DNA from: Smittium culicis
Taxonomy: Eukaryota; Kickxellomycota; Harpellomycetes; Harpellales; Legeriomycetaceae
NCBI GenBank assembly: GCA_001970855.1
Contig: LSSN01002578.1
Coordinates: 1 to 12,638, forward strand
Direction of reading: 5' to 3'
DNA: 12,638 nucleotides
In this document: positions 363-12,638 of the stretch, in pieces
Layout of the letters: each line of letters opens with the position of its first letter
Position numbering within the stretch: position 1 is the stretch's first letter
Notes under the pieces: model-generated
Databases searched by the model: none
Told to the model about the DNA's origin: nothing
Seen by the model: only the letters and a program-made list of their open reading frames with translations
Program-made: the position numbers and the translations under genes

Positions 363-751
363 GTTACGACTTATCAAAAGCTTTTACTTATGGTGTATTA
401 TAAGTAATAGAACATCAGTGGAAACTTGTAGGCCAATTGAATAAGTATTGGCTGAGTTATAGCCAATAAAAATTCTATTGGCTGGATCAAATGTGATCAG
501 CCAATAGAATAGAATATATTCAATTGATCAAATAGGATTTATTATAATTAATCAATCCAATAGCAAAGAAGAATATCTACTAGCCAATAGATATAAACCA
601 AGGCTGCTGAAATAATAGCTCATAATTTCATAGCCAATATTTATATATATTAAATCATTAGTTTTATATATAATTGAATCTCCCTATCTCTTTTCTAAAG
701 TATTAAATATGTTAAATAAACTCATCTTTATATTATATACCTTTTTATAAC
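363..751 (+). repeat. LTR-like outer segment of left arm (faces inward)
   Basis: Starts GTTACGAC, has many AGCCAATA / ATTGGCT boxes, an AT-rich TATA-like region and a CT-rich GAATCTCCCTATCTC leader, in the same order as the three other LTRs in the window. The mirror copy on the right starts with a full TGTTACGAT. The inner end is placed near TATAAC at 751 by analogy with the TAACA end of the 10954 LTR and is uncertain. No primer-binding site follows, so it is probably a solo or truncated LTR of a related family. Confidence 0.5.
461..510. repeat. 38-bp unit with 13-bp dyad, absent from right arm
   Basis: ATTCTATTGGCTG (472-484) and CAGCCAATAGAAT (498-510) form a perfect 13-bp inverted repeat. 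AGCCAATA occurs directly repeated at 461-468 and 499-506. The right arm has a single AGCCAATA here (9224-9231, reverse strand), as expected if the unit was deleted between the direct repeats. Confidence 0.75.
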
Positions 752-1240
752 TTTTCAATAGTTAAACCAACCAGCGTGGATTCTGAATGAATATTCTCTA
801 GTTTAAGATACCTTTTCATTAAAATAAGTTCAAGGCTGAATGATGGCAGCGTTGGTATCTTATGCTTTCTAATATCCCATTTCAACAAAGGAGATTCAAA
901 AAAGCGATAAAATCTTATTTTTAATTATTTTAATCTACAAATATTCTATTAATCTATTTAAGTTGTATCAAAAAATTTAAATAAATAAAATTTATTGACT
1001 TTTTATATCAGTGAACCGATTTATAACTTTATAACCTACAATTTTATTTTTTTTAAAATTTTACCGTGCATAAATTATATTTCATAAAATAAGTATTCTG
1101 TTTTAAAGTCTTTCAATATAATTTTAAGGTTTTGTTTTAGAAAAATGCTAATTTATAAATAAATTCATACGATTAAATAATTAATCCAAATAAACAAATT
1201 GATTTATGAGTTCACAGTTATGAATAAATCCAATAAAGGA

Positions 1241-1535
1241 AATGTACCGCCTTGATGGATTTTGGGTGTCCTGTTTTTTTTCATATAAAGTCACAACCAC
1301 CTATATATGACCTCACGGTAACCAATTTAATTATAATTTAAGTGAAACAGTAATTACGTCGATTTAGGGGCAATTCTGCAAAAACAACTGCCGAAGCGAG
1401 CGGGAACAGACTATCCGCACAGTCTAGAGAACAGTCAGCCTTCTCATTGATCCGCTTCAAAAACTAGAGATAACTAAAATTCTCGTACCCCCCGTAACTC
1501 ACGACCGCACCTGAAAATTACCTCGAGGTAGCATA
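1241..1535. other. GC-richer island of unknown nature (left arm)
   Basis: A block of roughly 300 bases that stands out from its AT-rich surroundings and is kept nearly unchanged in the other arm (8215-8505). It holds a perfect 12-bp palindrome TACCTCGAGGTA at 1519-1530 and a small hairpin AGACT-loop-AGTCT inside a GC-rich patch near 1390-1440. No open frame or tRNA-type internal promoter is evident. It could be a structured RNA gene relic, a short repeat element or a remnant of a captured sequence. Confidence 0.4.
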
Positions 1536-2487
1536 AATGAAAATAAATTATATTTTATGTAAAATTTCGAATATATTATTAGTTCATATGAAAATATATA
1601 TCATTTTATAACGAATTAATCAAATCAGCGGGAAATTATGTTAAATTTTTTATCATATTGAAGAATTTGAGCATGATAAATTTTATTATGAATCGAATTT
1701 GGTATGTCAGCCGTTTAATGAATCGGATTTTATTAATAAAAATATGATTTAATATAGTATCAATGACATATTCTTTAATAATAGAAAAATAATAATTATT
1801 TGGCTCCAGAATGACAGTTACAATAAAAAAGATTTTGATTAATTTTTTTCAATAACATTGATTTCTAGTTTCATAGATCAGTAATTAATTTTATGAAACA
1901 AGGAGGCCTAAATTAAGTATATCAAAATAAGGCATTTCACAAGTTTTGTAATAGTATTGAAACTTTAATAAACATATTTAGTTAATTACGTTTATAATTT
2001 CACAATAGATAGAACTTCGATTGAAGTAGTATTTATGATCGCACTTTTGGATAAGATTTTCAGTTCTAAAGTATGTTCTTGATTAATCTCTTGTATCGTA
2101 AATGTTGAAAGTTTTTTGTAAGTATTACAAAGTTTGAATAAAAAATTATATATATCTTTTTGATTTTTAAAATTATTTGATATATTAATAGAAAAAAATT
2201 TTTTTTACATGAATTGAGGGCAAATATATTGAATAATCCATTAATTTTATACGCGTCATGTATAGCTTTTTTATTATGACTTTTTTATTAGCAAAATTTC
2301 GAATATAAAATGCTTATAAATATATGAAAATTATATTTTTTGTATTTATTTTATTTATCAAATAATTTATAAATAAATACGACTTATTAATTGGTTTTTT
2401 TTATCCAAAAAAATGCAACATTTTTAAACTTAATCTATTCATAAAGATAATAATAGCTAGAAAAATAATAGGATACAATAATTATTG

Positions 2488-2543
2488 ATGTTTTACATGT
2501 GGTAAATAGTTATTAATGTTTTACATGTGGTAAATAGTTATTA
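2488..2543 (+). repeat. 28-bp minisatellite, two copies
   Basis: Two exact tandem copies of a 28-bp unit (2488-2515 and 2516-2543) that contains TTTACATGTGGTAAA, itself nearly palindromic. The equivalent site in the right arm has three copies. Confidence 0.9.
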
Positions 2544-3394
2544 TAATTAATGGGGTTGTCAAAAAATAGAATTTATTTTTTTTGGGAAAAGGTAAATAAT
2601 TTGTCAAATCATGGTTCTTAATTAATATAGATTCAGTTAATAAAACCTTGCGATTAATTTTAAGCCAATGGAATTTTTTAAAAAAAATGCAAATTTCGGT
2701 AATGAAAATCAAGCAAAAACCCCTGTTTAAATAAAAATTACGCCCTATGGTAAATATCGGCTACTTACATTTTTGTTTGAGATTTTTAACTTAATCGAAA
2801 TCCCAAAATTAAAGTAAATTTGTAATCCCTATCTATAAGGTATTGAAAAGTTATGAAAGCGTTTTTAGTGGGATATTTTATCAATTTGATTAATATTTAA
2901 GCTATAATCGATAGTTCTGGAGCTATTTTTAGTGTGATTTAGCGATACTGTGAATCGTAGTGATAAATAATATAAATATTAATTTATTTTATCTATTATA
3001 TATAGATTTAAAATTGTCTAATAAAATTATATATTTTTGCAAAACTTTATTTTGAAAAAATATTTCTAAGTGAAAATATAATAGAAAAAGTTTCTCTCTT
3101 AGAAATAGTCCCCCATAAATCAATTATAGCTCAAAGATATTTATTCCATAGATTTCATATATGTCACCTTGTATAATTATCACTTTATGGATTAAAACTA
3201 TAATTTGGGTACTAACTCATAAACATTCAAAATAGAATAGAATAAAATAAAGGTAACTTCAACTTATTAAATACGTAACAAACCAACTTGGGAGTTGAGC
3301 AATATGTATTATAAGCCACTCAATATTGAATGATGCAATCATTGCTGTAATATGATAGTCAGACTCTAATACCTATTTTAGCATTATTTGTTTT

Positions 3395-3580
3395 AATACT
3401 ACTCCATTTGTTCTATTTTTTATACGTTAAGCCGTTGTTTTTTTAGCTTCTGCACAAAATTTAATGCCTAAGCCTGCTTATATTTTCATGGTTTTTTCGA
3501 TGTTATAAAAGATATCTGATCACAATTTCAGTTACTCCATTATACCGAGGTGTATATGGAACGATCCTTGTTAGTAATAT
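3395..3580 (-). pseudogene. Ty1/copia integrase relic (left arm)
   Basis: On the minus strand one frame gives PYTPRYNGVTE, the signature PYTPQ-x-NG-x-x-E of retroviral-type integrases that holds the third catalytic acid. After a frame change it continues NIEKTMKI, stop, AGLGIKFCAEA, then NRTNGVV, matching in order the copia-type block around AGL, F-W-x-EA and NR. The usual Trp is Cys here. Several stops and at least one frameshift make it dead. Only this internal slice of pol is recognisable. The upstream part expected on the far side of the mariner insertion is missing; a mirror copy of the same slice is there instead. Confidence 0.7.
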
Positions 3581-3618
3581 TGAATTTTTTTTTATAATAG
3601 TAAAATATTTTGATATTA

Positions 3619-3877
3619 CAGGGTTTTGCATTCTATTTTACAAAATTTCAAAACAATTTTGCAATAAAAATTTTTTCGCGTTTCGCGTTTCGATTTTCGA
3701 AATTATGTAAGCAATTTCAAAACGATTTTACATTGCGTAATTTCAATTTTTCAAAGCTCTCATTCTACATTGTAAAGCTGCTTATATGAGCGTGAAAAAT
3801 AAAATTGGGGATACTAAAAATCTCTACTATAAGAAAAGCTCTACAATTTCATAAAATTTTGCAAATAAAAAAAATAA
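3619..3877 (+). repeat. Left terminal inverted repeat of the mariner element
   Basis: Pairs with 5851-6101. It differs from the right copy at a dozen or more positions by eye and carries a short extra CGCGTTT-type duplication near 3676-3690. The shared similarity stops at about 3877, where the two sides become unrelated. Confidence 0.85.
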
Positions 3878-4412
3878 TTACAAGCCATCTATCTTTTTTA
3901 ATTTCTCTTTTAATTTCTACAAGTATTTCTCAATAAAACTATCGAACTTGTATTAGTTATAACCTTTTATTGTGACCTATTAATACTATTAAACTATTTA
4001 AACATAGAGCTTCATTACATTTAGATAATAAAAAAATACATGAATAAAGCTAAATAAAGATGATTAATACGTGACCCTAATTCGAACTCGAAATATACGA
4101 ATTTATAATTATACATGTATACCTTGTAAGAATTATTCAATTGTAATTTAATTTATATACAATATATCAATTTAGAGCGATGACTATCTAATCTTTTAAT
4201 TACAACACTATTACTTTAAAATTTCATTTATAGGATATTATTAATTTATTATAAGCTATAAATAATATCGCAAAGTATCATTTGCTTTTTACTATTTAAT
4301 TTTAATAAAATTTTAAAATAAATTGACTATTTAAACATGACTAATATAAAATAAAGCAATATATTTCGTATTAGATATATTAAATAAAAAGTATTAAAAT
4401 AAAAAATTTGTA
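3878..4412. other. AT-rich filler downstream of transposase
   Basis: About 530 AT-rich bases between the transposase stop codon and the left terminal repeat. No open frame, motif or repeat stands out. Confidence 0.5.
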
Positions 4413-5421
4413 TTATTGTTCGATTATTTCTCTTCTTCCAGATGATATTAAGTATTTGTTCATGTTTCTATAATATCCATTACAATCCTCTCTTGTTACA
4501 CTTTCAAACCCTTCATTTATTTTATTAAAAAGATCAGATTCATTTTCAGGCTTAGAATATCTGACATAGTTTTTTACCTTTGAAAACAAATTTTCTATAG
4601 GATTTAGAAAAGGGAAATACGGGGGTAAATATAACAATTTAAAGTTGGTAGTTTCAATAAATTCCTTTATTATTTCAGTTTTATGGAATGCAACATTATC
4701 CATAACTAAAATCCCTCGTGTTATACCTTTGAATTCGAAGTCATTTAAAAGATCATTTATATAATCGTAGAATGAATCTGACCTGTAGGCTACAAAGCTC
4801 GGCAAAAAAAAAAAAAATTAAATCCAATTTTATTTACTGTGCAACAAGTTGATAAATTTCTTGATCTTATATTGTGTGCTACTCAAATCGGAAAAGTTCC
4901 TTTTTTTGATCTCCCATATAAAGGTCTTAAGGAAACAGAAAATACTACCTCATCGACGAAAAAAAATACTTCTTCGTCATAGGTAGCTGTATAATCGGTG
5001 TATGTTTTTGATTAGTCCTCCCTGGAATTTAAATTTTCATCATCATTTCTTCTAATTGGCAAAATTCTTATTCTCTTTAAATTATAGAAAAACCTAATAC
5101 AGCATCTATGTACTGTAGAAATTGATAGTTCAATATCGAATTCTTTTTTAACCATTTCTTTAATATCAGTCAATCTCAAGGTACGGTATTCATCCAATAA
5201 TCGTAACATATAACTTTCAATTCCAATGTTTACTTTTAAATTAACTGCTCCACCTTTAGGCATTGGTGCAATTCTGGATTCTGACTGGTATGCTTTTATT
5301 ATTTTATACACTGTATTTATTTTAATTTTCAGATCTTCTGATATCTCCTTTGCAGGTTTTGATTCAATATAATATGAACTACTCTTTCCCTATCTTCGGT
5401 ACTTGTCGTTTTATATTTCAT
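4413..5421 (-). pseudogene. Tc1/mariner (DD34E) transposase, dead
   Basis: Would encode about 336 residues, normal for a Tc1/mariner transposase that cuts and pastes the element at TA. An ATG at 5421 opens a frame lost by frameshift near 5365-5385. The next frame carries two helix-turn-helix segments (SKPAKEISEDL... and TDIKEMVKKEF...STVHRC) and a GAPxGG-like PMPKGGA patch. After an in-frame TAA (5012-5014) it continues into FFFVDE with the first catalytic Asp (codon 4952-4954). An in-frame TGA (4883-4885) and a frameshift at a 14-A run (4804-4817) follow. The last frame (4413-4805) has the second Asp in VMDNVAFHK (codon 4698-4700) and LNPIE with the catalytic Glu 34 residues later, plus an intact C-terminus. 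All catalytic residues remain; the reading frame does not. Confidence 0.88.
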
Positions 5422-5850
5422 TTTAAAAAATTTTTTCAATATTTGAATTATATATTTTTTGAATAATTTATTCAGGATGAAAAAAAACGATTATATAAAT
5501 TAAATGCATATATATCATTTGAAAAATAAAAAATTTCCTTGAAATTTAAGATATAAAAAAATAATAACATATGTATAATTATTTTTCTTTGAATATTTTT
5601 CTTCATTTATTTTTGAAACACTTAATAATAATATATTATTGTTTATAAAATACTAAATCAAGACTAAGCAAAGATATTTTATTGATATCACGTATAAAAT
5701 TAACATAAATATTCATTTATTAAAAAAATTTAGATGTTAAAGTATAAAATTATATAAAAAAAGTATATAGCGTGCGAGTATATTTAATATGAATAAAAAG
5801 GTATAAGGGTAGGTATACTAATTTCAAATAGATAAAACGCGAAAGATTAT
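5422..5850. other. AT-rich 5' region of the transposon
   Basis: About 430 AT-rich bases between the right terminal repeat and the transposase start. It would contain the transposase promoter, but I see no distinctive site and no gene. Confidence 0.45.
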
Positions 5851-6101
5851 TTATTTTTTTTATTTACAAATTTTTATGAAATTTTAAAGCTTTTTTTAAA
5901 GTAGAGATTTTTAGTATCCCCAATTTTTTTTTTCACGCTCAAATAAGCAGCTTTTCAATCTAGAATCAGAGCTTTGCAAAATTGAAATTACGCAATGTAA
6001 AATCGTTTTGAAATTGCTTACGTAATTTCGAAAATCGAAACGCGAAAAATTTTTATTGCAAAATTGTTTTGAAATTTTGCAAAATAGAATGCAAAACCCT
6101 G
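5851..6101 (-). repeat. Right terminal inverted repeat of the mariner element
   Basis: Reverse complement of 3619-3877. The outer end TGCAAAACCCTG directly abuts TA. It shares the word TTGGGGATACTAAAAATCTC with the left copy. Confidence 0.85.
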
Positions 6102-6140
6102 TAATATCAAAATATTTTACTATTATAAAACAAAATTCAA

Positions 6141-6328
6141 TATTACTCATAAGGAACATTCCATATACACCTCAGCATAATGGTTTAACTGAAATTGTGA
6201 TCAGATATCTTTTATAACATCGAAAAAACCATGAAAATATAAGCAGGCTTAGGCATTAAATTTTGTGCAGAAGCTAAAAAAACAACGGCTTAACGTATAA
6301 AAAATAGAACAAATGGAGTAGTATTAAA
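6141..6328 (+). pseudogene. Ty1/copia integrase relic (right arm)
   Basis: Plus-strand mirror of the relic at 3395-3580. Here the motif reads IPYTPQHNGLTE, closer to the family form than the left copy, then after a frame change NIEKTMKI, stop, AGLGIKFCAEA and NRTNGVV. Stops and frameshifts are shared with the left copy, so the decay came before the duplication. Downstream, one frame reads SDYHITAMIASFNIEWL, which is loosely reminiscent of the end of copia RNase H (EAEY..A...A..E..WL); that match is weak. Confidence 0.72.
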
Positions 6329-7176
6329 ACAAATAATGCTAAAATAGGTATTAGAGTCTGACTATCATATTACAGCAATGATTGCATCATTCAATATTGA
6401 GTGGCTTATAATACACATTGCTCAACTCCCAAGTTGGTTTGTTACGTATTTAATAAGTTGAAGTTACCTTTATTTTATTCTATTCTATTTTGAATGTTTA
6501 TGAGTTAGTACCCAAATTATAGTTTTAATCCATAAAGTGATAATTATACAAGGTGACATATATGAAATCTATGGAATAAATATCTTTGAGCTATAATTGA
6601 TTTATGGGGGACTATTTCTAAGAGAGAAACTTTTTCTATTATATTTTCACTTAGAAATATTTTTTCAAAATAAAGTTTTGCAAAAATATATAATTTTATT
6701 AGACAATTTTAAATCTATATATAATAGATAAAATAAATTAATATTTATATTATTTATCACTACGATTCACAGTATCGCTAAATCACACTAAAAATAGCTC
6801 CAGAACTATCGATTATAGCTTAAATATTAATCAAATTGATAAAATATCCCACTAAAAACGCTTTCATAACTTTTCAATACCTTATAGATAGGGATTACAA
6901 ATTTACTTTAATTTTGGGATTTCGATTAAGTTAAAAATCTCAAACAAAAATGTAAGTAGCCGATATTTACCATAGGGCGTAATTTTTATTTAAACAGGGG
7001 TTTTTGCTTGATTTTCATTACCGAAATTTGCATTTTTTTTAAAAAATTCCATTGGCCTAAAATTAATCGCAAGGTTTTATTAACTGAATCTATATTAATT
7101 AAGAACCATGATTTGACAAATTATTTACCTTTTCCCAAAAAAAATAAATTCTATTTTTTGACAACCCCATTAATTA

Positions 7177-7260
7177 TAATAACTATTTACCACATGTAAA
7201 ATATTAATAACTATTTACCACATGTAAAACATTAATAACTATTTACCACATGTAAAACAT
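7177..7260 (-). repeat. 28-bp minisatellite, three copies
   Basis: Tandem copies at 7177-7204, 7205-7232 and 7233-7260 of the reverse complement of the unit found at 2488-2543. The first copy has a single-base variant (ATAT for ACAT at its end). Confidence 0.9.
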
Positions 7261-8214
7261 CAATAATTATTGTATCCTATTATTTTTCTAGCTATTATTA
7301 TCTTTATGAATAGATTAAGTTTAAAAACGTTGCATTTTTTTGGATAAAAAAAACCAATTAATAAGTCGTATTTATTTATAAATTATTTGATAAATAAAAT
7401 AAATACAAAAAATATAATTTTCATATATTTATAAGCATTTTATATTCGAAATTTTGCTAATAAAAAAGTCATAATAAAAAAGCTATACATGACGCGTATA
7501 AAATTATTGGATTATTCAATATATTTGCCCTCAATTCATGTAAAAAAATTATTTTCTATTAATATATCAAATAATTTTAAAAATCAAAAAGATATATAAT
7601 TTTTTATTCGAATTTTGTAATACTTACAAAAAACTTTCAACATTTACGATACAAGAGATTAATCAAGAACATACTTTAGAACTGAAAATCTTATCCAAAA
7701 GTGCGATCATATATACTACTTCAATCGAAGTTCTATCTATTGTGAAATTATAAACGTAATTAACTAAATATGTTTATTAAAGTTTCAATACTATTACAAA
7801 ACTTGTGAAATGCCTTATTTTGATATACTTAATTTAGGCCTCCTTGTTTCATAAAATTAATTACTGATCTATGAAACTAGAAATCAATGTTATTGAAAAA
7901 AATTAATCAAAATCTTTTTTATTGTAACTGTCATTCTGGAGCCAAATAATTATTATTTTTCTATTATTAAAGAATATGTCATTGATACTATATTAAATCA
8001 TATTTTTATTAATAAAATCCGATTCATTAAACGGCTGACATACCAAATTCGATTCATAATAAAATTTATCATGTTCAAATTCTTCAATATGATAAACAGT
8101 TTAACATATTTTCCCGCTGATTTGATTAATTCGTTATAAAATGATTTATATTTTCATATGAACTAATAATATATTCGAAATTTTACCAAAAATATAATTT
8201 ATTTTCATTTATGC

Positions 8215-8505
8215 TACCTCGAGGTAATTTTCAGGTGCGGTCGTGAGTTACGGGGGGTACGAGAATTTTAGTTATCTCTAGTTTTTGAAGCGGATCAATG
8301 AGAAGGCTGACTGTTCTCTAGACTGTGCGGATAGTCTGTTCCCGCTCGCTTCGGCAGTTGTTTTTGCAGAATTGCCCCTAAATCGACGTAATTACTGTTT
8401 CACTTAAATTATAGTTAAATTGGTTACCGTGAGGTCATATATAGGTGGTTGTGACTTTATATGAAAAAAAAAGGACACCCAAAATCCATCAAGGCGGTAC
8501 ATGTC
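8215..8505. other. GC-richer island of unknown nature (right arm)
   Basis: Reverse-complement copy of 1241-1535, including the palindrome TACCTCGAGGTA at 8215-8226. Its near identity to the other arm reflects the recent origin or conversion of the repeat and is not in itself evidence of function. Confidence 0.4.
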
Positions 8506-8978
8506 CTTTATTGGATTTATTCATAACTGTGAACTCATAAATTAATTTGTTTATTTGGATTAATTATTTAATCGTATGAATTAATTTATAAATTAGCATT
8601 TTTTCTAAAACAAAACCTTAAAATTATATTGAAAGACTTTAAAACAGAATACTTATTTTATGAAATATAATTTATGCACGGTAAAATTTTAAAAAAAATA
8701 AAATTGTAGATTATAAAGTTATAAATCGGTTCACTGATATAAAAAGTCAATAAATTTTTTGATACAACTTAAATAAGTTAATAGAATATTTGTAGATTAA
8801 AATAATTAAAAATAAGATTTTATCGCTTTTTTGAATCTCCTTTATTGAAATGGGATATTAGAAAGCATAAGATACCAATGCTGCCATCATTCAGCCTTGA
8901 ACTTATTTTAATGAAAAGGTATCTTAAACTAGAGAATATTCATTCAGAATCCACGCTGGTTGGTTTAACTATTGAAAA

Positions 8979-9343
8979 GTTATAAAAAGGTATATATTAT
9001 AATGATGAGTTTATTTAACATATATAATACTTTAGAAAAGAGATAGGGAGATTCAATTATATATATAACTAATGATTTAATATATATAAATATTAGCTAT
9101 GAAATAATGAGCTATTATTTCATCAGCCTTGGTTTATATCTATTGGCTAATAGATATTCTTCTTTGCTATTGGATTGATTAATTATAATAAATCCTATTT
9201 GATCAATTGAATATATTCTATTCTATTGGCTATAACAGTCAACACTTATTCAATAGGGCTACAAGTTTCCGCTTATGTTCTATTACTGATAATACACCAT
9301 AAGTAAAAGCATTGGTATAATATATCAGTATTATATCGTAACA
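8979..9343 (-). repeat. LTR-like outer segment of right arm (faces inward)
   Basis: On the minus strand it opens TGTTACGAT (with position 9344 included), like the LTR at 11554, and shows CCAAT boxes and the CT-rich GAATCTCCC leader. It interrupts the pol frame of the gypsy element immediately after the CCCCCAA that encodes part of a Pro-Pro. The inner end is uncertain. Confidence 0.55.
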
Positions 9344-9658
9344 TTGGGGGAAATACTTCGTCATTAAAGCATAAACTCGAGATGTTCGTTGAAAATGTCG
9401 TAAAATCGTAATCGGTATCGTAATTATCGTTATCGTCGTTATCTTCGTAGTCGTATTTTAAGTCGTTATCGTCGTAGTCGTTTATGATTTCGCTATCGTA
9501 TTCGCTTTCGTTGTCGTTTTTGATGTCGTATTTGTTGTCGTTTTTGATGTCGTATTTGTTTTCGTATTGGATTTGGAGTTTGCTGTTTTCGGATTGAGGC
9601 TTGTCAGGAGGTTTACGTTGTTTGCGCACAGTATTTCTCCTATTTACTGTGCGTTGTC
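9344..9658 (-). pseudogene. Start of pol (protease leader), copy A, truncated
   Basis: This is the -1 frame entered after the frameshift site. It is open from the slip to 9629, where VRKQRKPPDKPQ begins, then runs through an Asn/Asp/Glu/Tyr-rich linker to NDEVFPP. Alignment with copy B (RKLRKPPDKPQ ... EIILPP) stops exactly where TGTTACGAT starts, before the catalytic DSG of the protease. The remaining codons to 9273 belong to the invading LTR-like sequence. The linker contains a 24-bp exact-length tandem duplication (9517-9540, 9541-9564) encoding KYDIKNDN twice. Without the catalytic core it cannot be a protease. Confidence 0.75.
9517..9564 (-). repeat. 24-bp in-frame tandem duplication in pol leader
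   Basis: Two 24-bp units differing at one base, lying within a wider run of TCGTNN hexamers that encode the acidic Asn/Asp/Glu linker. The length keeps the frame open. Confidence 0.85.
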
Positions 9659-9665
9659 TCTTCCC
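9606..9665 (-). promoter_or_regulatory. Predicted -1 ribosomal frameshift signal, copy A
   Basis: On the minus strand, in gag frame, G GGA AGA (9665-9659) is followed by a 6-nt spacer (9658-9653) and by GCACAGTA / TACTGTGC, a perfect 8-bp stem that can gain a ninth C-G pair (9653 with 9625). Its 11-nt loop (9644-9634) holds AGGAG (9641-9637), which can pair with CTCCT at 9610-9606 to form a pseudoknot. The gag stop codon (9646-9644) lies at the stem/loop border. The -1 frame leads without stops into pol. The heptamer departs from the X XXY YYZ rule at one base and copy B has the canonical form, so this copy may shift poorly. Confidence 0.7.
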
Positions 9666-9760: not shown

Positions 9761-10891
9761 TTAGCACTGGCTGTTTAGATCATACTCGTCGAATTGAACC
9801 TTGGTCATAGTTATATTGTCGCGGCTGTGTGGCTTTGTATTGCGCTGGAATGGGTTCCTGAAATTTTGTGTGCCGAAACGAGTAGTCACAGGAACATAGC
9901 GGTTGTTGTACTGTGGTGTGTATTGTGCAGCACTGATAGTGATATTTTGATCAGGTTTGATTGAGGCGACAATCGGATCAATTTCCATGCTTAGATGGCG
10001 GTCTACATTCATTCGGGCAGGCTTGGATTGAATCTCTGTAATCTGGGCCTTGAGTCGTTTCTCGAATTCCTCAAAGGTCTCATTGGCAATTTCGGGAAGG
10101 TACTTGCGAATGCTTTGGTCGATTTGCTTCCTAAGCATTACAATGGCTAATTTGCTGTTGTCTCCTGTGACAATTTTGATGGCTGGTCGGACTTGCTGGA
10201 TAAACGAGTTGAAGTCTGATTTCTCCGTAAGGCGCATTGTGTATATTTTGTCCAATGCCATACTGAGCGATTCTGCACCGCCAAACTGTTTCGCTAGAGA
10301 CTGTCTTAAATTGTCCCAGTTGTCGATGTTTCCGTCAGGTTCTGCGTCGTACCAACTTCTGGCCTCCCCTTTCAATGAGTCGACTACAAGGATAAGTTTC
10401 TGGAAGTCGCTGAGTCCGGGATAGTTTGTGAACAATTCGTCGACTCCAAATATCCATCGGTTGAAAGAGATAGGCTGGCCGTCGAAGGAGGGAATTTTCG
10501 GAATATTTTTGAGTGAAGCTTGGCCAACTGCAGAAATGTTGGTGCCAGCATTATTTTGGAGCTCCATAATTTGCTTGTAGAGAGATGCTTCTTTGACGGC
10601 TAACTGTTCGCATTTCATGGCAGTTTCGGCTTTTAGCTGTTCATACGCTACGGCTTGCTCAAGGCGGTGGCGGCTCTCGGTATCAAGGCTCAGCTTAAGT
10701 TGGGCCAACTCGGCATCTTTTTCGGATAGGGCGGCGGCGAGTTTGTTGTGCTCTTCGGCGAGAGCGTTAAAGCTGTTTTCCCCGTCTATCAACTGTTGGC
10801 GCAGGCTGGAGATTTCGTTGTCCTTGGAAGCTAGCAGTTCTTCAGCATTGGTGATTTGGCTGGCAGTTAATTGGATAGAGTTGTCAGACAT
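9761..10891 (-). CDS. gag: Ty3/gypsy Gag structural protein, copy A
   Basis: Gag forms the cytoplasmic virus-like particle that packages retrotransposon RNA. The ATG at 10891 has a good context (AAACATGTC) and follows the leader by about 50 bases. Residues about 15-113 are Glu/Lys/Leu/Ala-rich heptads, a long coiled coil. Residues about 133-285 form the retrotransposon gag (capsid-like) domain, with IPSFDG, RW, YPGLSDFQKL, LKGEARSWYD and WDNLRQSLAKQF. The C-terminal part is basic and Asn/Gln-rich (FRNPFQRN). The frame stops at residue 376, right inside the zinc knuckle; the in-frame remainder is at 9644-9760. Codon use is far less AT-biased than the surrounding DNA, as is usual for a retroelement that expanded relatively recently. 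Full length would be about 415 codons. Confidence 0.88.
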   Translation of the reverse strand: MSDNSIQLTASQITNAEELLASKDNEISSLRQQLIDGENSFNALAEEHNKLAAALSEKDAELAQLKLSLDTESRHRLEQAVAYEQLKAETAMKCEQLAVKEASLYKQIMELQNNAGTNISAVGQASLKNIPKIPSFDGQPISFNRWIFGVDELFTNYPGLSDFQKLILVVDSLKGEARSWYDAEPDGNIDNWDNLRQSLAKQFGGAESLSMALDKIYTMRLTEKSDFNSFIQQVRPAIKIVTGDNSKLAIVMLRKQIDQSIRKYLPEIANETFEEFEKRLKAQITEIQSKPARMNVDRHLSMEIDPIVASIKPDQNITISAAQYTPQYNNRYVPVTTRFGTQNFRNPFQRNTKPHSRDNITMTKVQFDEYDLNSQC

Positions 10892-10951: not shown

Positions 10952-11036
10952 AATGTTAGGTATTTTTAGTGAATTTATTGAAAAAGTAAAAGCTAAGAGA
11001 AGAGAGAGAGATTCAAATGGAATCTCATAAACTAAA

Positions 11037-11046
11037 CTATTTATAC
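11037..11046 (-). promoter_or_regulatory. LTR TATA box
   Basis: GTATAAATAG on the minus strand, identical to the site in the LTR at 1-285 and placed before the CT-rich leader. Confidence 0.65.
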
Positions 11047-11094
11047 TAAAATCAAAACTATGTAAAAAATATTGTTAATTAGTTATTGGCTATT

Positions 11095-11121
11095 GCTGAA
11101 ATGACGTAATGTCATTTCAGC
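11095..11121. promoter_or_regulatory. U3 dyad with bZIP-like core and CCAAT boxes
   Basis: Perfect 11-bp inverted repeat GCTGAAATGAC / GTCATTTCAGC with loop GTAAT, giving ATGACGTAAT, close to an ATF/CREB-type site. It is bracketed by ATTGG and CCAAT. The stem is identical to that at 119-145 while the loop differs. Confidence 0.5.
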
Positions 11122-11261
11122 CAATAGAATTACTGCTAGTCATTACTTCCTGTTCTACTTGTCCAATAGCATCGCAAGATATATCATTCAACAGCTGGCT
11201 ATCTCGGCTGTTCATTGGTCTTGTCAGTATGTCAGAATACTGGCTGCTGATTGGCGTAACA

Positions 11262-11553
11262 TTGGCATTATCGTATTCTGTGGCGGCTGATTGTCGGCAT
11301 CATTGGTTGTTACTTCAGATACGTCATTTTCTTCAGAATCATCATCGTAATTTGAAGCGCCATCGGAAATAGAGTCAATTTCGGAAGAGCTGTCAGCTAA
11401 AGTATCTAATTGCCCAAATCGGCGAATTGTTCTTTTTGGCGGGCCTTGACTTCTAGTTTGAACGGCGGCTATTTTATTATCACCAGAATTGATATCCTTG
11501 AAATCACGCGATAAGGCATCAGTTAGTCCATTTTCTAGTCCTTTTATATGTTT
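11262..11553 (-). pseudogene. Ty3/gypsy pol fragment: RNase H end and tether
   Basis: The minus-strand frame is open across the whole piece (about 97 codons). It begins HIKGLENGLTDALSRDF, the hallmark end of the Ty3-type RNase H domain (family form HIKG-x-x-N-x-x-ADALSR). It continues into a linker with IAAVQTRSQGPP and a long Asp/Ser/Glu-rich tail, as found between RNase H and integrase. It is cut at both ends by LTRs: one in plus orientation upstream at 11554, one in minus orientation downstream at 11261. It could be the same old element as copy B, whose reverse transcriptase is missing, but that link is inference. Confidence 0.72.
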
Positions 11554-11717
11554 TGTTACGATTGGATAACGTTAGATACCCAGTTTAGCCAATAAGATAA
11601 ACAGATAGCGACTTATTGATGTAGCCAATCAATAGATAAGATCATTGCCTATCGAATGATATAAGTTTCATTATGGACGGCCGATTATATCATGAGATAT
11701 GAACGGTCGATAAAACT

Positions 11718-11752
11718 ATTGGCTGAATTAGCTTAATCTCAATTCAGCCAAT
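11718..11752. promoter_or_regulatory. CCAAT-box dyad in plus-strand LTR
   Basis: ATTGGCTGAATT and AATTCAGCCAAT form a perfect 12-bp inverted repeat with an 11-nt spacer, so two CCAAT boxes face each other. The arrangement parallels the dyads of the other LTRs although the inner sequence differs. Confidence 0.45.
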
Positions 11753-11757
11753 TGTGA

Positions 11758-11803
11758 ACATATTTAGCTACATATATTTAGCTACATATATTTAGCTACA
11801 TAT
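11758..11803 (+). repeat. 14-bp tandem repeat in LTR
   Basis: ACATATATTTAGCT at 11770-11783 and 11784-11797, preceded by a 12-bp short version (11758-11769) and followed by a partial unit. It lies just upstream of the TATA-like tract. Confidence 0.8.
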
Positions 11804-11835
11804 TTTCATAGTATATATATTTTAGTTTTAGTTAT

Positions 11836-12558
11836 TTATTTTGAATCTCTCTCTCTTTCCTTAGCTTTAAATTTTGCACTTGGCTTAAATAAAACTGCTT
11901 TTAATTGACACTTTTCACAGATCGTCATATCCATTGGACTGTATGTCACTTTCGAGGCAAAGATGAAATTGGCACCTAAAATGATGTCAAGTGGCTGTGA
12001 AGGCATAATTCTGAAAGTCGTGTCATATTTTGTTCTCCCAAAGCTTAAGCAAGCAGAAGCGACTTTGTTTGAAGTGATAGTAGTTGAGCCATTTCCAAGC
12101 TTGATTTTTATTGGCTTGTGCTCTATTTGTTTTAATTTTAATTTTGCTGCAGCTGCGGATGAAATACTTGTTATTTGAGACCCTGAATCTAATAGTATCG
12201 AAACAGGAACATTATTGACATATCCAGTGAGTTTGAAGCATATACTCTCGTTTAGATGTAGATTCATAGTTGTTATAGTAGTCGGAGGCAAAATAATTTC
12301 AGAAGAGTCGGGAGTCGTAAAATTCGATGCAAAAGTCGTATCGTCGATATCATCTGTGTCATATTCGTTTATATTCGTTCGGTTGTCGTATTTGCATTCG
12401 TAATCGTAATCGTAATCGTTTTCGTTTTCGTTGTTGAGGTCGTTTTCGTTGTCGTTTTCGTTGTCGTTCTCGTTGTCGTATTTGTATTCGTAATCGTCGT
12501 TTTGGAGTTTGGTGTTTGAAGTTTGAGGCTTGTCGGGAGGTTTTCTTAGTTTGCGCAC
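11836..12558 (-). CDS. Retropepsin (pol N-terminal part), gypsy copy B
   Basis: The aspartic protease cleaves Gag-Pol during particle maturation. Residues 1-12 (RKLRKPPDKPQ after the first) match copy A. Residues 20-75 are an Asn/Asp/Glu/Tyr-rich low-complexity linker. The retropepsin core spans about 100-215: catalytic LLDSGSQITSI (Asp 124) and the ILGANFI signature (193-199) where the family has ILG-x-DF. The frame has no ATG start; the first codon shown is GTG, and it is open upstream to the slip site at 12588-12594, so translation by -1 frameshift from gag is the likely route. The last ten residues (KAKERERDSK) are read antisense through the LTR leader repeat at 11836-11866, so the natural C-terminus and the reverse transcriptase are lost. 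The protease core appears complete. Confidence 0.85.
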   Translation of the reverse strand: MRKLRKPPDKPQTSNTKLQNDDYEYKYDNENDNENDNENDLNNENENDYDYDYECKYDNRTNINEYDTDDIDDTTFASNFTTPDSSEIILPPTTITTMNLHLNESICFKLTGYVNNVPVSILLDSGSQITSISSAAAAKLKLKQIEHKPIKIKLGNGSTTITSNKVASACLSFGRTKYDTTFRIMPSQPLDIILGANFIFASKVTYSPMDMTICEKCQLKAVLFKPSAKFKAKERERDSK

Positions 12559-12594
12559 AGTATTACTCCCATTTACTGTGCTTTGTCTTTTCCC
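12535..12594 (-). promoter_or_regulatory. Predicted -1 ribosomal frameshift signal, copy B
   Basis: On the minus strand in gag frame: canonical slippery heptamer G GGA AAA (12594-12588), spacer of 6 nt (12587-12582), stem GCACAGTA (12581-12574) with TACTGTGC (12562-12555), loop of 11 nt. The loop bases GGGAG (12570-12566) can pair with CTCCC at 12539-12535 after a 15-nt connecting loop, giving an H-type pseudoknot with 3-nt loops on either side of the second helix's 5' strand. The gag stop lies at 12575-12573. Geometry and order fit known retroelement -1 frameshift signals. Confidence 0.8.
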
Positions 12595-12638
12595 TCATCG
12601 AAAGATTCAGAAAGCATTGGGTTCATGAAACGCGTTGG
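12573..12638 (-). CDS. gag: C-terminal end of Gag, gypsy copy B (partial)
   Basis: In-frame tail of gag entering from the right window edge: RFMNPMLSESFDEGKDKAQ then TAA. It matches the copy A tail (RFMNLLVSESFEEGRDNAQ), which follows the zinc knuckle. The rest of this gag, including any knuckle, lies outside the window. Confidence 0.75.
   Translation of the reverse strand, partial: PTRFMNPMLSESFDEGKDKAQ

Follow-up and report, generated by a model that had tools for sequence, protein, structure and literature searches.

A group of Ty3/gypsy LTR elements in the genome of Smittium culicis (hereafter group I) shares a gag-pol junction in which pol lies at −1 to gag, a slippery heptamer is confined to the frame overlap, and two downstream helices are conserved, with strong covariation in the first and moderate support from covariation in the second. 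We consider it likely, with a probability of roughly 0.8, that −1 frameshifting at this junction is driven by an H-type pseudoknot.

In the mechanism we propose, the majority of ribosomes would terminate at the gag stop and release Gag. A minority would pause at G GGA AA(A/C) on meeting an H-type pseudoknot that begins about 6 nt past this site, predicted to consist of stem 1 (8–9 bp) and stem 2 (4–7 bp), the latter joining an 11-nt loop to bases about 15 nt farther downstream. A tandem slip back by one base would replace GGA AA(A/C) by GGG AAA, the pseudoknot would be unfolded, and the slipped ribosomes would read on into the protease-reverse transcriptase frame, so that Gag would be made in excess of Gag-Pol. 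The gag stop overlaps the 5' arm of stem 1 in 9 of the 11 junctions, and ribosomes that do not slip would therefore open the stem before terminating.

Two truncated Ty3 copies in the window

Smittium culicis belongs to the Harpellales and lives as a commensal in the insect gut (PMC5954228). The GC content of the window, that is the whole stretch of 12,638 nt analysed here, is 28.4%, compared with 28.6 and 29.5% in two S. culicis strains (PMC5954228). Its minus strand carries two Ty3-type copies, A and B, which are truncated remnants of Ty3/gypsy elements with the putative frameshift signal. Their main frames are:

9761–10891, minus strand: gag frame of copy A, 376 aa (PF03732, E 3e-7), closed by an in-frame TAA before the junction is reached
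9273–9665, minus strand: pol (−1) frame of copy A, truncated after 390 nt
11836–12594, minus strand: pol (−1) frame of copy B, counted from the heptamer (PF13650, E 1.8e-11; PF13975)

Copy B (11836–12638, minus strand) comprises the end of gag and a protease (PF13650/PF13975). Its gag runs off the contig end with 44 nt visible, and the gag frame was taken from relatives. The pol frame encodes an Asp/Asn-rich linker followed by a retroviral-type aspartyl protease, which is broken by entry into another repeat, present elsewhere, before the stop is reached. The pol frame of copy A ends 390 nt past the heptamer, within the end of a long inverted repeat. The two copies are 83% identical over 132 nt.

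As read from the sequence letters, the TAA that terminates the gag frame of copy A sits inside an apparent zinc knuckle. A reassigned stop codon was considered and rejected, a decayed copy being the simpler explanation: the best actin-family match (profile positions 2–409) is free of stops, and locus L012, translated with the standard code, has a long gag frame as well as a long pol frame. Other actin-family matches do contain stops, as expected from introns and broken copies.

An inverted repeat at 377–9313 has arms of about 3.5 kb (377–3880 and 5848–9313), pieces of which are 90–99% complementary, and its 2-kb spacer holds a piece of a DDE_3 transposase (4413–4805, minus strand) and a weak, below-cut-off helix-turn-helix match (5012–5311, minus strand). 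It resembles a Tc1/mariner-type element whose inverted repeats are very long, and its end lies in the protease frame of copy A. At the break in the protease of copy B lies a stretch of about 900 bp (10979–11878) with 70-nt inverted ends (80% complementary); part of it (11000–11261) is 84% identical to positions 24–285 of the window, and short matches to other contigs were found near its end.

The whole junction spans 12535–12594 in copy B and 9606–9665 in copy A, both on the minus strand. In element sense copy B reads GGGAAAA-GACAAA-GCACAGTA-AATGGGAGTAA-TACTGTGC-(15 nt)-CTCCC, and copy A reads GGGAAGA-GACAAC-GCACAGTA-AATAGGAGAAA-TACTGTGC-(15 nt)-CTCCT. The parts in copy B are:

12588–12594, minus strand: slippery heptamer GGGAAAA (G GGA AAA in the gag frame)
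12582–12587, minus strand: 6-nt spacer GACAAA
12574–12581, minus strand: 5' arm of stem 1, GCACAGTA
12573–12575, minus strand: gag stop TAA, overlapping the end of the stem 1 5' arm (alignment columns 20–22)
12563–12573, minus strand: 11-nt loop, AATGGGAGTAA
12566–12570, minus strand: 5' arm of stem 2, GGGAG
12555–12562, minus strand: 3' arm of stem 1, TACTGTGC
12540–12554, minus strand: 15-nt linker from stem 1 to stem 2
12535–12539, minus strand: 3' arm of stem 2, CTCCC

and those in copy A are:

9659–9665, minus strand: heptamer position, GGGAAGA, not X XXY YYZ
9645–9652, minus strand: 5' arm of stem 1, GCACAGTA (gag-frame TAA at 9644–9646)
9634–9644, minus strand: 11-nt loop, AATAGGAGAAA
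9637–9641, minus strand: 5' arm of stem 2, AGGAG, in the loop
9626–9633, minus strand: 3' arm of stem 1, TACTGTGC
9606–9610, minus strand: 3' arm of stem 2, CTCCT

An earlier, sequence-only reading of the window had proposed that both copies share a perfect 8-bp stem, an 11-nt loop and a 15-nt linker, with five pairs between the loop and downstream bases (GGGAG with CTCCC in B, AGGAG with CTCCT in A). All of these were found where it had placed them, and pol is, as it had claimed, exactly −1 to gag and open in both copies, for 756 nt in B and 390 nt in A. It had also called the 6-nt spacer identical, which is incorrect, as copy B has GACAAA and copy A has GACAAC, one base apart; because of this difference a ninth stem pair (C-G), absent in B, is possible in copy A. 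A heptamer of the G GGA ANA type had been assigned to both copies; GGGAAAA of copy B does fit X XXY YYZ, and is the only such heptamer in phase between a −1-frame TGA directly upstream (12595–12597) and the gag stop, whereas GGGAAGA of copy A is off-pattern. The downstream difference was rightly described as silent (CCC or CCT, both Pro in the pol frame). The G/A difference on the loop side is not silent in pol, giving Gly in B and Arg in A. As for the proposed compensatory pair between the copies, pairing is indeed kept by the base change, but this amounts to one event only.

A loose scan of the window for any X XXY YYZ followed by an 8-bp stem gave nine matches, compared with 1.55 per dinucleotide shuffle; five of the nine had a 5-bp stem 2, compared with 0.31 per shuffle, and the eight matches other than copy B are AT-rich. 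The motif inside the window alone is thus not decisive, and the case was therefore moved to a comparison across copies.

Further junctions and the two stems

The host genome was searched by DNA, protein and stem pattern, and at least 11 distinct group I junctions were found among the best candidates. One family (family 1) consists of A, B, C (L007) and D (L009), and the loci L010, L011, L012, L013, L014, L015 and L016 make up six further families, L014 being grouped with L015. L008 was dropped, as it is the same as L007 except for 2 of 3,627 bases, and L015 was left out of the aligned rows because its first 62 columns are the same as those of L014. A genome-wide pattern of the exact stem with a loop of 9–13 nt was found at five places only, all of family 1 and one of them the duplicate.

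The examination of more copies, which the sequence-only reading had proposed as a check, turned out in its favour: the nine further S. culicis junctions keep the layout, which is common to all 11 and free of gaps over 62 columns in the 10 aligned, and pol is −1 to gag in 11/11, the gag frame of B and D (44 and 24 nt of gag left) being taken from relatives. Stem 1 begins 6 nt past the heptamer (5 nt with the ninth pair) in every junction. The heptamer fits X XXY YYZ in 9/11, where it is the sole one in phase between the upstream −1-frame stop and the gag stop; the exceptions are copy A (GGGAAGA) and L016 (AGGAAAA), neither of which has an in-phase X XXY YYZ in its overlap. That −1-frame stop lies 0–9 nt upstream in 8/11 junctions; in the other three the distance is 33 nt (L014 and L015) or 114 nt (L010). 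The gag stop occupies columns 20–22 in 9/11, the two others having it at column 17 (L011) and column 11 (L016). After the junction pol stays open for between 78 nt (L016) and more than 2000 nt (L011, L012), and the peptide GKR opens the pol frame in all six rows of the protease alignment. Judged by sequence, the site is a putative −1 frameshift site of the X XXY YYZ class, with the heptamer, an open −1 frame that overlaps gag, and a predicted stimulatory structure 5–9 nt downstream.

The assignment to Ty3/gypsy rests on a gag with a CCHC knuckle, an aspartyl protease, a Ty3-type reverse transcriptase and RNase H, the last two read in the relative L041. An integrase (PF00665) is among the domains of the relative P0007, listed with no position relative to RNase H, and is absent from the truncated window copies. 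Directly after the junction, 12-nt periodic repeats (9448–9595 and 12362–12521 of the window) encode an Asp/Asn/Tyr-rich linker in the pol frame, and these repeats are long in family 1 and short or absent in L010–L013.

Stem 1 is almost certainly real. Over the 10 distinct rows 97.5% of its 80 cells are paired; 7 of the 8 pairs have changed on both sides, and the eighth is invariant. Its covariation is 0.503, compared with 0.219 ± 0.039 in shuffles, 0/500 of which reach it, and sliding the partners gives a covariation of at most 0.164 and at most 58.8% pairing. Taken by itself, the count of pair types is unremarkable (199/500 shuffles). A ninth pair (columns 13 and 41), G-C or C-G, is present in 8/10 rows.

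In fixed register 82% of the 50 cells of stem 2 are paired, and 4 of its 5 pairs show changes on both sides. Ten cells carry double changes, compared with a shuffled mean of 4.4 (0/500), and the covariation is 0.507, compared with 0.214 in shuffles (0/500); since the seven families are related, these and the other shuffle counts given here are not probabilities. The number of pairs with double changes is reached by 115/500 shuffles, and with the stem slid by +1 the covariation is still 0.427. A covariation test had also been proposed by the sequence-only reading, and the support it gives is very strong for stem 1 and moderate for stem 2. The loop letters change together with their partners, as in GGGAG/CTCCC, TTTGG/CCAAA, TGAGG/CCTCA and TTTTGGT/ACCAAAA. 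The best stem 2 in register 83–87 is, for each junction:

B: UGGGAG with CUCCCG
A, C and D: UAGGAG with CUCCUG
L010: GGAGU with ACUCC
L011: GGAG with CUCC
L012: UUUGG with CCAAA
L013: UUUGG with CCAAG
L014 and L015: UGAGG with CCUCA
L016: UUUUGGU with ACCAAAA

When loops were swapped among the seven families, the natural sum was matched by 26/5040 arrangements in register 83–87 and by 168/5040 in register 85 alone. Leaving out L016 gave 11/720 and 32/720, respectively, and leaving out both L016 and B gave 9/120 and 16/120, which is weak; a swap free of any register limit was not significant (1346/5040). Shuffling the downstream letters gave a combined p of 4e-6 at register 84–87, a range chosen from the same data. 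Furthermore, a synonymous-codon null, itself weak and built on codon usage pooled from the same short junctions, gave no clear signal for stem 2 (Fisher p 0.09, 0.15 and 0.63); part of the reason is that the 3' arm is largely dictated by Pro codons. Stem 2 has 4–5 bp in 5/7 families (only 4 bp in L011), and about 3 nt separate it from stem 1 in most families, although L014 and L015 can close this gap by an 11-bp stem 1; textbook frameshifting pseudoknots have 0–1 nt between the stems. With the fixed-register and restricted-swap results positive, and the unrestricted swap and the synonymous null not significant, we regard stem 2 as probably real.

A covariance model of the junction (R1), run over 46 sources, gave six further, decayed junctions (L022, L019, L021, L058, L059 and L025), which were left out of the counts, as were matches at E ≥ 0.67 (a second place in L019, L027, L060/L061, L068 and others to E 4.8). 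In fixed register the six keep 6, 5, 5, 1, 1 and 6 of the 8 stem 1 pairs, respectively; allowing for a 1-nt deletion improves the pairing in L058 and L059. They have 8–12 gag-frame stops in the 450 nt upstream and a stem 2 of −3.0 to −5.5 kcal/mol, compared with −6.4 to −11.9 kcal/mol in the 11 main junctions, where stem 2 is at nearly the same place in all seven families. L016 runs counter to this contrast, with nine pol-frame stops in 450 nt and yet a 7-bp stem 2. In viral contigs 38 stretches fitted a search pattern, none of them a relative.

A hairpin group in the same genome and the rival explanations

A second, more distant Ty3 group (group II) consists of L070, found in a separate search, and L075–L088, which are 14 of 52 matches. 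Pol is −1 in all 15 loci read, and the heptamer is X XXY YYZ in 12/15 (GGGAAAA in 11, TTTAAAA in L086), the off-pattern loci being L078, L080 and L088. The gag stop follows soon after the heptamer. Downstream lies a hairpin of 13 pairs with an 8-nt loop, in which 90.9% of cells are paired over 11 rows and 5 pairs show double changes; L076, L085 (a near copy of L079), L087 and L088 were left out of this count, and over all 15 rows 86.2% of cells are paired. The pair at columns 21 and 38 is unpaired in 7/11. No consistent downstream partner was found for the group II loop, and 1/11 reaches −6.4 kcal/mol, a loose comparison as the loops are shorter.

The existence of this group bears on the reading in which −1 frameshifting is real but stimulated by the stem 1 hairpin alone, stem 2 being a by-product of Pro-rich downstream coding and short loops. 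Group II, in the same genome, has the same slippery site with a hairpin and no consistent second helix, and the shortness of stem 2 in group I, together with the outcome of the unrestricted swap and the synonymous-codon null, is consistent with it. However, the letters of stem 2 change together with their partners at a near-fixed distance, and both the fixed-register covariation (0/500) and the restricted swap (26/5040) argue against a by-product. The loop and downstream bases of the hairpin group, whose loops are shorter, pair more weakly than −6.0 kcal/mol in 10/11, so strong pairing of this kind is not automatic. We therefore regard a hairpin-only stimulator in group I as unlikely.

Explanations that do without a frameshift, or without meaningful pairing, have a much lower probability. 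The current S. culicis gene models would suggest that gag and pol are joined by the splicing of a small intron, and in the annotated proteins P0003, P0005, P0009 and P0025 a gag part and a protease part appear to be linked over the junction. Read against the loci studied here rather than the models' own DNA, the four join at different places (after, inside and upstream of the zinc knuckle, and after the gag end), as expected if gene finders were forced to bridge two frames, and no intron is required where the overlap itself holds a conserved slippery site in phase. Splicing is accordingly very improbable, and the joins are probably false introns, which suggests that gene models of S. culicis joining gag and pol frames by introns are wrong. 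The idea that translation of pol starts past the gag stop, by re-initiation or internal entry, draws on a methionine just before the protease in 4/6 rows of the protease alignment, at which the gene model P0004 starts. It would leave unexplained the in-phase GGGAAA(A/C), the −1-frame stop 0–9 nt upstream in 8/11 junctions and GKR at the heptamer in 6/6, and we give it as little credence as splicing. That the pairing in A and B is meaningless, a product of chance and shared descent, could be argued from the 83% identity of the copies and from the fact that an X XXY YYZ with an 8-bp stem and a 5-bp stem 2 is not very rare within the window. Six further families keep the pairing with different stem and loop letters, however, and for stem 1 chance is largely refuted by covariation across 10 rows, which makes this reading extremely improbable. 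The −1 frameshift signal with a pseudoknot, as put forward by the sequence-only reading, is the best-supported explanation, with both helices kept by paired changes in nine further junctions.

Relation to known frameshift systems

Retroviral gag-pro and gag-pol pseudoknots of the MMTV type combine an X XXY YYZ heptamer, a spacer of 5–9 nt and an H-type pseudoknot. Compared by description rather than by sequence, the group I junctions resemble them in the heptamer, the spacer and, probably, the H-type fold, and differ in the short stem 2 and in the gap of roughly 3 nt that separates the two stems in most families. The PEG10/RTL family is a single-copy domesticated gene with a PF16297 capsid. 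Membership of the group I elements in this family was rejected: there are several copies, many with broken frames, and the gag of copy A matches PF03732 and gave no match at E ≤ 1 to PF16297, which we take to be the PEG10-type capsid domain and which is listed for the fish relative P0066. In PEG10, itself derived from a Ty3/gypsy element, the slippery site is GGGAAAC, followed by a 5-nt spacer and a pseudoknot (PMC2800197; PMC5009743). The likeness lies in a gag-like frame followed by a protease frame at −1, the slippery site, the short spacer and, probably, the 3' pseudoknot (PMC2800197; PMC5009743), whereas the elements described here are multicopy fungal LTR elements with GGGAAAA or GGGAAAC, a 6-nt spacer and an 11-nt loop.

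The Ty3 element of Saccharomyces, likewise Ty3/gypsy, provides the closest solved reverse transcriptase (7q5b, 4ol8). It uses a +1 shift believed to proceed without tRNA slippage and without any pairing inside the mRNA (PMC5009743). A Ty3-type +1 frameshift was rejected for group I, where pol is −1 in 11/11. A 2003 survey found pol at −1 in 28/51 animal elements, fungi being less skewed between +1 and −1 (PMC5009743). In the open-licence literature, screened by title or the start of the abstract, we found no report of a signal of this sort from Smittium or any other early-diverging fungus. Given the PEG10 precedent, the kind of signal is known, and the fungal family, with its covarying pseudoknot, appears to be a new member of it. 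The group I junctions would thus extend pseudoknot-driven −1 frameshifting from Ty3/gypsy-derived mammalian genes to the LTR elements of a harpellalean fungus. The seven covarying families, together with the hairpin group, offer material for testing the co-evolution of slippery site and stimulator.

Group II resembles group I in the in-phase GGGAAAA (11/15; TTTAAAA in L086) near the gag stop and in the −1 position of pol, and differs in having the 13-pair hairpin with an 8-nt loop in place of the predicted pseudoknot. We put at about even the chance that related Ty3 elements kept the slippery site and the gag end and exchanged the 3' stimulator, a pseudoknot in group I and a 13-pair hairpin in group II, with others using one frame. 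If so, the exchange would provide a natural series for the evolution of frameshift stimulators between RNA folds.

Three further Ty3 families (L071, L072 and L073, on C813, C1166 and C2030) encode zinc knuckle and protease motif in the same frame. The suggestion that a pseudoknot type would serve as a family marker therefore holds fairly well within the S. culicis genome, where the other Ty3 group has the hairpin and these three families a single frame.
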